Positions 10,202 through 14,077 of a stretch of 32,872 bases of DNA are shown here, in pieces. Origin of the DNA: an uncultured bacterium (GTDB lineage Bacteria; Patescibacteriota; Minisyncoccia; Phycocordibacterales; JAACPR01); the NCBI GenBank assembly GCA_937858275.1, contig CALLZK010000022.1, positions 1 through 32,872 on the forward strand, read 5' to 3'. How positions within the stretch are numbered: the stretch's first letter is position 1; each line of letters starts with the position of its first letter. The notes beneath the pieces are model-generated. The model made no database searches. It was not told where the DNA came from and saw only the letters and a program-made list of their open reading frames with translations. The translations under genes were made by a program, and so were the position numbers.

Positions 10202-10237
10202 ACATACAAGAATACACCAAAAACAATCATAAAAAAA

Positions 10238-10260
10238 GTGCCCGAACAAATGCCGGGCAC
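10238..10260 (-). terminator. Strong intrinsic terminator after the 61-aa gene
   Basis: GTGCCCG (10238-10244) pairs with CGGGCAC (10254-10260) around a 9-nt loop. On the minus strand the hairpin is followed by seven T (complement of 10231-10237). It begins 6 nt after the stop codon at 10267. Confidence 0.9.
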
Positions 10261-10266
10261 CAAAGA

Positions 10267-10452
10267 CTATTCCTGTTGAGACGAAGATTCGTCTCCAACC
10301 GAAATCACAACACCGGGAAGATGAATTTGATCAACGAAAGATTCGCCAGGATAAAATATAGATGGAACATGTCCACCACCATCTCTTATCCGAGAAACCT
10401 GCTGTTTCATACAATCATCTTCGATGTTTTCATCTTTACGATGAAGCTTCAT
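10267..10452 (-). CDS. Small hydrophilic protein in an SD-bearing cassette
   Basis: This 61-residue protein has no recognised domain, no membrane segment and no signal peptide. It is charged at the N-terminus (MKLHRKDENIEDD), has a glycine run (DGGGH, about 24-28) and ends in a polar tail (DESSSQQE). It is believed real because the ATG has a strong SD (GGAG, 6 nt spacing), the stop is followed by a terminator within 6 nt, and G+C is clearly higher than in the flanking holA and polA genes. The SD box is identical over 12 nt to that of 13530-13967 and absent from other genes here. Its function is unknown. Confidence 0.7.
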   Translation of the reverse strand: MKLHRKDENIEDDCMKQQVSRIRDGGGHVPSIFYPGESFVDQIHLPGVVISVGDESSSQQE

Positions 10453-10457
10453 AAATT

Positions 10458-10484
10458 TCTCCTTTCTTTCAAAAGAATAATTTA
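10458..10484 (-). promoter_or_regulatory. Shared 12-nt SD box and weak promoter of the 61-aa gene
   Basis: On the minus strand AAAGAAAGGAGA (complement of 10458-10469) precedes the ATG by 5 nt and is the same 12-mer as before 13967. Upstream, TAAATT (10479-10484) with TTGATT (10502-10507) at a 17-nt spacing is a weak promoter candidate giving a leader of about 20 nt. That leader is just long enough to hold the SD sequence. Confidence 0.6.
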
Positions 10485-10529
10485 AAATTTAAAATAATGC
10501 AAATCAAAAAAATAAATTCTTCGTCAAAA

Positions 10530-12911
10530 TTATTTTTTCTCCATTTCTCCCCAGTTTTTTCCGATAGAAAATTCAGAAATTATTGGAACACCCAGAGACT
10601 TTTCTTTTGTCAAAACAGATTGCATTATTTTTTTTATATCTAGCACAATCTTATCAATCACATTTTCGGAAACTTCATATATAACCTCATCATGAATTTG
10701 CAAAATTAATTTTACATCCTTATCTAAATTTTGTTTTTTTAAATACTGATCAATTTTGACCATAGACATTTTTATCAAATCGGCTTGTGTTCCCTGAATT
10801 GGAGCATTAATTGCCATTCTTTCTGCCTGTGCCCTGATATAAGGAATTGAAGATTTAAATCCGTCAAAATATCTTCTTCTGCCAAAAATCGTTTCTGTGT
10901 AGCCATTTTTTCTGGCAAACTCTTTAGTTTTTTCTAAATATTTAAATAAATCTGTATAAATTGAAAAATAATCATTATAAAATTTTTGAGCTGTTTGCCG
11001 ATCAGAACCGATTCCGTCTTTTAGAGCATTAACTCCCATACCATACAAAATTCCAAAATTTATAATTTTGGCTTTTCTTCTCATTTCTTTATCAACATTT
11101 TGTTTTTCAACTCCAAAAATTGCTGAAGCGACATTTGTGTGAATATCTTCTCCATTTTTAAAAACTTCTATTAATTTTTTATCTTCTGACAAAATTGCAG
11201 CGATTCTCAACTCTATTTGAGAATAATCGAAAGCCAATAATAATTTACCCTTTTCGGCTACAAAAGATTTTCTTATTTCTCTTCCACGATCTGTGCCAAT
11301 TGGAATGTTTTGCAAATTCGGATTATTTGAAGACATTCTGCCTGTGGTTGTGCCAGTTTGTAAAAAATTTGCATGCAATCTGCCGTCATTTGCGACACTT
11401 TTTGGTATTGCATCTATATATGTTGAGAGCAATTTTTGAAATTCTCTATATTCTAATATTTCATCTATTATTTTGTGACTACCTTTTAATTTTTGCAAAA
11501 CATCTTCACGAGTAGATAATTTTCCAGTAGATGTTTTTCTCATTCCCTTATATTTTAAATTTAATTTTGTAAATAATATTTCTGACAATTGTTGAGGAGA
11601 ATTTATGTTAAATTCTTGCCCAGCAAAATCCCAAATATTTTTTTCATATTTTTTTAATTCTTTATGATATTCAATCGATAAATTATTTAAAAAATTTAAA
11701 TCCACTTTTACACCATTTTTTTCCATATCGGAAATAATTGGTATTAAAGGTTTTTCAATGTTATAAAAAACATAATCTAACTTTTTTTCAAAAATTTCTT
11801 TTAAGATTTTTTTGTGAGCAATTTCTATATCTTGCTCACGAGTATAATTAAAAACATCTTCTAGTTGAGGATTAGTAATTGAAGAATTTATCAACCACAA
11901 AGCAATTTTTGCTTCTGATGAAATAATTTGATTTATTTTTTTATCTTCCAAATTATTTTTTTGTATATTTTCAGAAAAACTATCAGAACTATTTTCTGGA
12001 ACTATCAAAATCTCTTTTAGTCTCAAATTTAAAGATCTAAATTCCAAATCCTTAAAGAAATCTTGAATTTTTTGAACAGAAACTGTTTCAGACCAATTTT
12101 TTTCTGGTATTTCAAATTCAACCGGAACATCTTTTCGAATTGTTGCTAACATTTTACTAAACTCGGCCTCTTCTCTATTTTCTTTCAAAAGATTTATGAT
12201 TCTTTCTTTTATTCCTATTTCCAAAATTTTTTCTGGCGACTTTTCTAAAGTATTATAAATATTTTCGATTGAGCCAATTTTTGAAATTAAAATAGTTGCT
12301 GTTTTTTCTCCTATTCCAGAAATTCCAATAATATTATCAGAGGGATCCCCCCTCAAACCCTTGTAGTCTGGCAACAAATTAGGAGAAAATCCAAATCTAT
12401 TAAAAACTCCATCCTCATCATATATAATAGTATCTTTTATGCCCTTTTTTAAAGTAAAAACTTTGACATTTTTTCCATCAACAAGCTGAAGTGTGTCCAT
12501 GTCACCAGATGCTATTATAATTTCTGCATCTTTTTTTAATTTTTCAGATAATGTACCCAAAACATCATCTGCTTCATAGCCCTCTTTTTGATATACCGGT
12601 ATTCCAAAAGCAGAATACAAATCATAAGCTCTTTTGATTTGAGAAATAAGTTCAGGATCAGATGCTTTCCGACCAGCCTTATAATCAGTGTATGCCTCAT
12701 GTCTGTATGTTGGTTTTGGTAAATCAAAAGCCGCAATCAAATGATCAGGTTTTAATTCTTTTATTATAGAAATAAGCATTGAAGAAAGCCCGTACAATGC
12801 ACCAGTCGGTTCACCCCTGCTTGACGAAAAATCTGGCAAAGCATGATATGCCCTGTGCAATATTGCATGAGAATCAAGTAAAACTATTCTTTTTTTATCT
12901 TTTTGTGACAT
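10530..12911 (-). CDS. polA: DNA polymerase I
   Basis: This 793-residue protein has a 5' nuclease domain (about 1-290) with DSHAILHRAYHALP, AFDLPKPTYRHE, EADDVLGTL, SGDMDTLQLV and the helix-hairpin-helix GLRGDPSDNIIGISGIGEKT. The middle region (about 310-430) should hold the 3'-5' exonuclease, but the D-x-E active-site motif is not visible, so proofreading is probably lost, as in Taq polymerase. The polymerase domain is intact: TGRMSSNNPNLQNIP, DYSQIELRI (motif A), RRKAKIINFGILYGM (O helix, motif B) and HDEVIYEV (motif C). It acts in repair and Okazaki fragment maturation. The ATG directly follows the tsaE stop with no gap, so the two are coupled. Confidence 0.97.
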   Translation of the reverse strand: MSQKDKKRIVLLDSHAILHRAYHALPDFSSSRGEPTGALYGLSSMLISIIKELKPDHLIAAFDLPKPTYRHEAYTDYKAGRKASDPELISQIKRAYDLYSAFGIPVYQKEGYEADDVLGTLSEKLKKDAEIIIASGDMDTLQLVDGKNVKVFTLKKGIKDTIIYDEDGVFNRFGFSPNLLPDYKGLRGDPSDNIIGISGIGEKTATILISKIGSIENIYNTLEKSPEKILEIGIKERIINLLKENREEAEFSKMLATIRKDVPVEFEIPEKNWSETVSVQKIQDFFKDLEFRSLNLRLKEILIVPENSSDSFSENIQKNNLEDKKINQIISSEAKIALWLINSSITNPQLEDVFNYTREQDIEIAHKKILKEIFEKKLDYVFYNIEKPLIPIISDMEKNGVKVDLNFLNNLSIEYHKELKKYEKNIWDFAGQEFNINSPQQLSEILFTKLNLKYKGMRKTSTGKLSTREDVLQKLKGSHKIIDEILEYREFQKLLSTYIDAIPKSVANDGRLHANFLQTGTTTGRMSSNNPNLQNIPIGTDRGREIRKSFVAEKGKLLLAFDYSQIELRIAAILSEDKKLIEVFKNGEDIHTNVASAIFGVEKQNVDKEMRRKAKIINFGILYGMGVNALKDGIGSDRQTAQKFYNDYFSIYTDLFKYLEKTKEFARKNGYTETIFGRRRYFDGFKSSIPYIRAQAERMAINAPIQGTQADLIKMSMVKIDQYLKKQNLDKDVKLILQIHDEVIYEVSENVIDKIVLDIKKIMQSVLTKEKSLGVPIISEFSIGKNWGEMEKK

Positions 12912-13463
12912 TTATAAATTAATTGATTCAAATTTAACATTTCTTTGATTTTCATTAATAAATTCAAAAGACAATTTAAAAAAACTTTTTGGCATGGCAT
13001 CAATTATAATATCTGGCCATTCAACTATTATTATATTTTCTGGATTATTAATTATTTCAATCCAATTCAAGACAGATAATTCTTTTGATGATTTTAATCT
13101 GTACATATCAAAGTGATATATTTTTTTAAAAAAGATTTTATTTTCAAAATCATTATTGTTTTCTTTTAAAAAAATTGATTGATTGTTTTGCCAAAAATTA
13201 TTTGGAATATCAAAAATTTTACAAATCACAAAAGTTGGACTAGTCACATTTTCTTTTATTTCAAAATTTTTAACAAAATATTTTGTAAAAGTAGTTTTGC
13301 CAGAACCTAAATTTCCAAAAAGAGCTATAACTGTTGCGGTTTCATTCTTTTTATTAAAAACCGAATTTAAAATATGTAAAAAAATTTTTTGAGAAAAGAT
13401 AGCCATTTCTGATTCGTTTTTTATTTCAAAAAAATCTTCTTTTTTAATTAATTGAAAATTCAT
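12912..13463 (-). CDS. tsaE: tRNA threonylcarbamoyladenosine biosynthesis ATPase TsaE
   Basis: This 183-residue P-loop protein has Walker A GNLGSGKTT (50-58), VTSPTFVI (73-80, switch-like motif), YHFDMYRL (a hallmark of TsaE) and VEWPDII near the C-terminus. TsaE powers the TsaB/TsaD complex that makes t6A37 in ANN-reading tRNAs. It is longer than the usual 150 residues or so because about 25 low-complexity, asparagine-rich residues are inserted between SPTF and HFDMYR. The ATG lies 6 nt after an extended -10 (TGT + TAGAAT, 13470-13475). TsaB/TsaD are not in the window. Confidence 0.92.
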   Translation of the reverse strand: MNFQLIKKEDFFEIKNESEMAIFSQKIFLHILNSVFNKKNETATVIALFGNLGSGKTTFTKYFVKNFEIKENVTSPTFVICKIFDIPNNFWQNNQSIFLKENNNDFENKIFFKKIYHFDMYRLKSSKELSVLNWIEIINNPENIIIVEWPDIIIDAMPKSFFKLSFEFINENQRNVKFESINL

Positions 13464-13469
13464 TTAATC

Positions 13470-13475
13470 ATTCTA
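13470..13475 (-). promoter_or_regulatory. Extended -10 of tsaE-polA
   Basis: TGT + TAGAAT on the minus strand, 6 nt before the ATG at 13463. The same nine-base sequence stands 7 nt before tyrS (19844-19849). Confidence 0.55.
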
Positions 13476-13494
13476 ACATTTTTTAAAAAGTAAA

Positions 13495-13525
13495 AAACCG
13501 CGGCAGAGAGACTCTGTCGCGGTTT
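13495..13525 (-). terminator. Strong intrinsic terminator after the lipoprotein-like gene
   Basis: AAACCGCGGCAGAG (13495-13508) pairs with CTCTGTCGCGGTTT (13512-13525), 14 bp with one G-T pair and an AGA loop. On the minus strand the stem runs into a T-rich tract. It lies 4 nt after the stop at 13530. Confidence 0.92.
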
Positions 13526-13529
13526 AAGT

Positions 13530-13967
13530 TTAGTCACAGTACCCACACGGGCACAGTGACGGTTGTTGTGCCGGTGATGTTGATGTATCACCGGCCTTCT
13601 TCCGAACCTTTATTTCGTGCCAGTTGGCACTTTTTGAAGTTCGGCTGTAGCATCCCTCACCCCAGCTGTGAGGTGAGCCGCAGTTGACACATTCAACAGG
13701 GTCAAAAACACTGTTCCGCTGTGTTTGTGTTACCCCGTTGAAGGTCCACGATCCGTGGGTTCTCCTGGTCGAACCAGAAGAAAACGCAATATCGACTCCA
13801 CCAATTCCCGGACGAAAGGATTGATTGTAGTTGATGCTGTTCCTCCTGTACCGCCCACCCCAGGAGTTATAATTTTCTTCCTCGGAGTGGTAGGATCCCC
13901 ACCGCTCGGTCGTGGCACAACCGGTGCCCAAACCAACAACCAATAACATCAAAAAACTGATTTTCAT
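13530..13967 (-). CDS. G+C-rich secreted, lipoprotein-like protein with Cys clusters
   Basis: This 145-residue protein starts with a signal-like hydrophobic segment (MKISFLMLLVVGLGTGC); C17 could be a lipidation site, but the lipobox is imperfect. The rest is polar and rich in Gly, Ser, Asn and Arg, with no membrane helix. It holds CVNC and SWGEGC (about 93-107) and ends in CPCGYC, giving a cysteine pattern that could bind metal or form disulfides. No family is recognised. About half of its bases are G or C, against roughly a quarter to a third in its neighbours. It has a strong SD (GGAG), a near-consensus promoter and its own terminator. It looks acquired or under special expression. Other frames are open across it because of base composition, but only this one has the start signals. 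Confidence 0.75.
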   Translation of the reverse strand: MKISFLMLLVVGLGTGCATTERWGSYHSEEENYNSWGGRYRRNSINYNQSFRPGIGGVDIAFSSGSTRRTHGSWTFNGVTQTQRNSVFDPVECVNCGSPHSWGEGCYSRTSKSANWHEIKVRKKAGDTSTSPAQQPSLCPCGYCD

Positions 13968-13972
13968 GGCCC

Positions 13973-14038
13973 TCTCCTTTCTTTATTTGAGCCTTTTTTA
14001 TTCTGCACAAATTATAACATAATTTATAAAAAAATCAA
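13973..14038 (-). promoter_or_regulatory. Promoter and SD of the lipoprotein-like gene
   Basis: On the minus strand TTGATT (14033-14038), a 16-nt spacer, then TGT + TATAAT (14011-14016). A leader of about 37 nt contains the 12-nt box AAAGAAAGGAGA (13973-13984) whose GGAG is 6 nt from the ATG. This is one of only two genes in the window with such a leader. Confidence 0.75.
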
Positions 14039-14062
14039 GCAAACAAAAAAACTTCTTTTTGA

Positions 14063-14068
14063 TATAAT
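14063..14068 (+). promoter_or_regulatory. Extended -10 of pilB
   Basis: TGA + TATAAT, ending 9 nt before the ATG at 14078. No clear -35 is seen. A leaderless or nearly leaderless transcript is predicted. Confidence 0.6.
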
Positions 14069-14077
14069 TTAAATCAA

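Follow-up and report, generated by a model that had tools for sequence, protein, structure and literature searches.

Two self-contained gene cassettes with extended Shine-Dalgarno boxes in a Patescibacteria lineage that looks mostly leaderless and whose readable 16S ends have no anti-Shine-Dalgarno sequence

How does a gene headed by an extended Shine-Dalgarno (SD) box come to stand in a genome whose other genes look mostly leaderless, and how is it read there? The question is raised by two small genes, here called cassettes 1 and 2, that lie in gaps between the housekeeping genes polA and holA, and tsaE and pilB, respectively, of a Patescibacteria genome (599,548 bp, 97.8% complete). The window that was analysed is one whole contig of this assembly (C22; 32,872 nt), which opens at positions 1-270 with a direct repeat around a tRNA-Ser gene and its upstream half-copy. 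A sequence-only reading had taken the two genes for members of one class of self-contained, G+C-rich cassettes, perhaps acquired or expressed by an SD-dependent route of their own. Statistics for the class in this genome come from the window plus sampled stretches (363 kb in all), in which genes were called with a simple gene caller.

Both genes carry the 12-mer AAAGAAAGGAGA at the same distance from the ATG (Table 1), as the sequence-only reading had it, and these two are the only matches with 0 mismatches in the window. The strong terminators that it placed after both genes also hold up, since 0/200 shuffles fold equally well at either one. A promoter candidate had been proposed at each gene. 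Cassette 2 carries one, TGTTATAAT, with a resulting leader of ~35-40 nt; cassette 1 has no clear promoter, a weak one at best, and could also be transcribed from the tsaE-polA transcript. Compared with the genes of the window (GC 0.296±0.036, GC3 0.214±0.042), cassette 2 is a clear compositional outlier (GC 0.51, GC3 0.54), while cassette 1 departs from its neighbours in GC (0.40) and is only mildly high in GC3 (0.27). The cassette 1 protein has no relatives in 397 genomes of the order, Pfam, PHROGs, phages, plasmids or IMG/VR. The cassette 2 protein has none by Pfam, PHROGs, PDB, phages, plasmids or IMG/VR, and in the 397 order genomes it found one weak partial match (E 5e-4, 40% over 42 residues, with a stop inside). 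Neither an integrase, a transposase nor a shared flanking repeat was seen at either site, and a shared mobile-element or attC-like repeat around the cassettes was rejected after a search of the flanks returned only AT-rich matches.

Table 1. Features of the two cassettes, a leaderless neighbour and the hairpin-SD leaders of this genome
Feature	Position	Strand	Remarks
Cassette 1 ORF	10267..10452	minus	61 aa orphan
Extended SD box of cassette 1	10458..10469	minus	AAAGAAAGGAGA, 5 nt before ATG
Intrinsic terminator of cassette 1	10237..10261	minus	GGTGCCCGGC..GGGCACTTTTTTT, z -3.2
Cassette 2 ORF	13530..13967	minus	145 aa predicted lipoprotein, MKISFLMLLVVGLGTGC lipobox, cysteine-rich C-terminus
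Extended SD box of cassette 2	13973..13984	minus	AAAGAAAGGAGA, 5 nt before ATG
Promoter candidate of cassette 2	14011..14038	minus	TTGATT, 16 nt, TATAAT, extended -10 (TG)
Intrinsic terminator of cassette 2	13485..13526	minus	AAACCGCG..CGCGGTTTTTT, z -4.4
TATAAT just upstream of pilB ATG (14078)	14061..14077	plus	leaderless example, divergent from cassette 2
Five hairpin-SD leaders of this genome	L068:4589, L072:2650, L072:11593, L066:17187, L074:3160		

The proposed genome-wide scan bore out the rarity of the box: the exact 11-mer AAAGAAAGGAG followed by N3-9 and ATG occurs at only 2 sites in the genome and at 0 in the reversed control. The 12-mer is nevertheless ordinary and not a cassette-specific tag, being the complement of the usual 16S tail ACCTCCTTTCT. 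Both cassettes match the canonical tail over 9 nt (AGAAAGGAG, the complement of CTCCTTTCT) at the usual spacing. The description of the genome as otherwise without SD sequences was overstated, since AAGGAG+N3-9+ATG has 36 matches in the genome versus 9 in the reversed control, and about 4% of the genes form an SD-led minority class. Its marks are a long leader, a strong SD, an orphan product and a terminator, to which raised G+C is added in this AT-rich host. Within the 363-kb sample a terminator lies 3' of 9/14 SD genes versus 16/300 others (p 4e-8), and GC3 is at least 0.30 in 11/14 versus 8/300 (p 4e-13). Start-site errors are behind several of these eight GC3-rich "non-SD" exceptions, among which SD-like boxes were seen at inner starts of miscalled genes. 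With SD, terminator and atypical G+C, both cassettes belong to this one self-contained class, as had been supposed. A Pfam search at E 0.001 with 20 further proteins, 19 of them from this genome, left 17 without a match and matched the others to an EamA half-transporter, a Band 7 protein and a SAICAR synthetase. Phage relatives are known for one class-like gene of this genome (GC 0.57), at 46% in a viral contig and at 37% in a Fusobacterium phage.

A short perfect hairpin lies directly against the SD in five leaders of this genome (e.g. GTCGGTacaACCGAC-AGAAAGGAG). As a class feature this hairpin (GTCGGTacaACCGACAGAAAGGAG and four similar ones) was rejected as not general (8/73 versus 3.8 expected), and a viral scan with the hairpin-SD motif gave unrelated contexts only. 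On the minus strand at L074:2780-2830, a small hairpin is followed by 17 nt perfectly complementary to a canonical 16S tail (AGAAAGGAGGTGATTCC), and no real ORF comes after them.

The bulk of the genes in this genome has no clear SD excess. Upstream of the non-SD genes TATAAT peaks sharply at 13-15 nt from the ATG, a spacing that is the signature of leaderless transcripts, and judged by this spacing the majority looks leaderless, in agreement with the sequence-only reading. The cassette neighbours pilB and holA both fit the pattern.

CCUCC is absent from 43/43 readable 16S ends of the order, and both family relatives (G001 and G002) lack it as well. Ends in the order read like GTGGAATATTTCAA. 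The replacement has the form GTGGA[AT][TC]A[AT]TTCAA or one close to it, and in many cases a small inverted repeat, TTC..GAA, comes next (e.g. L203, L200 and L110). Most other classes of the phylum keep GGATCACCTCCTTTCT at the 16S tail, and in other orders of the same class the anti-SD is mixed or degenerate, so its order-wide loss looks derived. Going by these relatives, the anti-SD would be absent in this genome too, whose own 16S lies outside the assembly. An SD-dependent expression route is thus doubtful, unless this genome differs from its order. In one relative, G130, two 16S ends stand on separate contigs (G130:C2:172187 and G130:C6:258), one without and one with a canonical anti-SD; the canonical second 16S is likely contamination. 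We considered three substitutes for the missing tail. No displaced anti-SD behind an intron was found within 1.5 kb downstream of the 16S at 30 loci, no CCTCCTT occurs inside 23 16S genes of the order, and the extended matches offered no clear candidate for a free anti-SD RNA.

The SD-led class extends across the order. The exact box with ATG occurs at 87 sites in 97 order genomes versus 14 in reversed controls, some of them inside genes. In five order genomes an SD of at least 8 nt precedes 23/104 terminator-closed genes (control motif 4) versus 8/913 others (control 7; p 6e-18). In four sampled genomes that have an anti-SD, SDs are for the most part shorter or nearly lacking. Average G+C of SD-led genes is 0.39-0.45 (~0.42) whether the neighbours have 0.31 or 0.48, and its slope against host G+C is 0.37±0.13, compared with 0.82±0.03 for other short genes. 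Raised G+C is therefore not a property of the class everywhere; the label "G+C-rich" fits in this genome owing to a very AT-rich host. The SD-led proteins are for the most part confined to their own lineages, with 9 related pairs among 129. A small family whose proteins start ERRGEIALxxLK is SD-led in three genomes (L165, L168 and L146; 31-36% identical), and very strong SDs precede tiny ORFs of 10-34 codons, possible micropeptides, at L148, L157, L152 and L145.

The flanks of the two cassettes are the housekeeping genes named before, and both gaps were compared with those of relatives. polA and holA are 1-62 nt apart in 5/7 relatives compared (G004, G006, G009, G011 and G014), and cassette 1 therefore looks inserted between them; in the other two, the genes are separated by 270 nt (G002) or by an additional gene on the other strand (G001). 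The tsaE-pilB gap is empty (61-171 nt) in four relatives (G005, G008, G012 and G017) and is occupied by other genes in most, 10/14 of those in which both flanks were found. The occupants are one to four differing genes, usually codirectional with tsaE, mostly secreted or lipoproteins, and above their neighbours in G+C in 6/10 filled relatives. They range from 62 to 273 aa or more, and no pair is convincingly similar (best E 0.004-0.011), although the G004 and G019 proteins have a C-terminal RWDIR in common.

For the class as a whole acquisition fits best, and we give about an even chance to the explanation that both genes are accessory cassettes from a pool among anti-SD-bearing microbes that now sit in a mostly leaderless, anti-SD-less lineage. 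Each unit, consisting of promoter, leader, extended SD, orphan ORF and terminator, would derive from a pool circulating among microbes with a canonical anti-SD, its accessory genes shaped in anti-SD-bearing cells, phages included. Such units would sit in permissive gaps between housekeeping genes, and each, bringing its own start and stop signals, would therefore add a gene without disturbing the neighbours. Initiation in the present host probably proceeds without mRNA-rRNA pairing, helped by the A/G-rich leader; E. coli ribosomes have been reported to start at the correct sites in the absence of such pairing (PMC7043885). No donor for either cassette gene was found in the databases searched. 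Evidence against acquisition comes from G013, G096 and G002, where the G+C of the class is host-like, and from SD-led families that persist with their SDs kept. The occupied tsaE-pilB gap of most relatives and the lack of an integrase, transposase or common flanking repeat at the two sites also count against it.

The host-like G+C and the kept SDs favour the main rival, in which the SD-led class would be native. Something other than the lost 16S tail, be it a protein, another RNA or a minor ribosome population, would still read its SDs and so give surface and accessory genes an expression channel of their own. The SD of a nitronate monooxygenase is kept in 6/7 order genomes with proteins 51-65% identical to the query, outside donors of this gene in the sampled phylum being only more distant relatives, and a lysozyme-like gene just after the 16S keeps its SD in 3/3 order genomes (L200, L201 and L202). 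In G013 there is an SD excess only at 8 nt and above with no background of weak SDs; clear intermediate, decayed SD lengths are absent there too, in a test that is underpowered. Conserved SDs would be expected from selection on a working SD or from frequent exchange within a shared pool. We regard native reading as somewhat unlikely in view of the 16S genes without CCTCCTT, the lack of a candidate anti-SD RNA among the extended matches, a class G+C largely independent of the host and the lineage specificity of most SD-led proteins. It is likewise unlikely, in our view, that a small class of terminator-closed genes, most of them secreted or orphan, has its very strong SDs read in this anti-SD-less order by a mechanism other than the 16S tail, which would amount to a second initiation channel. 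For cassette 2, the gene in the tsaE-pilB gap of most relatives could be one fast-evolving native gene, and cassette 2 the local version of this ancient, vertically inherited lipoprotein, with G+C and SD set by its own constraints. The mostly filled gap, its codirectional secreted products, several of them lipoproteins, and the shared RWDIR point that way; the four empty gaps, the spread in length and gene number and the poor best pair make it distinctly improbable, and it leaves cassette 1 unexplained. We would be very surprised if this genome, unlike its relatives, kept an anti-SD, so that both cassettes were ordinary SD-led acquired genes: the 16S missing from the assembly leaves room for this, whereas the anti-SD-less family relatives and order members and the bulk of genes without clear SD excess argue against it.

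Phage morons are autonomous promoter-gene-terminator insertions, and the cassettes resemble them as self-contained units between genes that adjoin in relatives, with atypical composition and an orphan product. Insertion between genes adjacent in relatives and an own terminator are found at both cassettes, an own promoter clearly at cassette 2 and weakly at cassette 1. Unlike morons, the cassettes stand in a bacterial chromosome among housekeeping genes and not in a prophage, neither protein has a PHROG match, and they add an SD foreign to the 16S of the lineage. Integron gene cassettes likewise make up a mobile-looking pool of small accessory genes with orphan products; here, by contrast, no attC-like repeat was seen, and the units have their own terminators and leaders and occupy scattered single sites.

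The bacteria lacking a CCUCCU anti-SD that are named in the passages cited from Amin et al. (2018, PMC6107228) are mainly Bacteroidetes, Tenericutes and Carsonella, and are generally without SDs. The order studied here is like them in its 16S tail and in most of its genes; compared with what those passages describe, it differs in retaining very strong canonical SDs on a small class of genes. In the Bacteroidetes of Jha et al. (2021, as cited in PMC9723584) the anti-SD is present but sequestered; these genomes are SD-poor as well, whereas here the anti-SD is absent from the 16S gene of the order. Long SDs like those of the cassettes pair with an extended 16S tail in Staphylococcus aureus as described in PMC13009471, in that case with the matching tail in the same cell.

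The order-wide loss of the anti-SD is notable in itself. We found no paper on such loss in Patescibacteria in the open-access literature searched, a scope that leaves most subscription papers outside, and any claim of novelty is limited to that literature. Where the host ribosome has nothing to pair an SD with, the SD is a simple sequence mark by which incoming accessory genes could be recognised in leaderless Patescibacteria genomes. If these SDs are still used, the order would be a test of SD function without an anti-SD.
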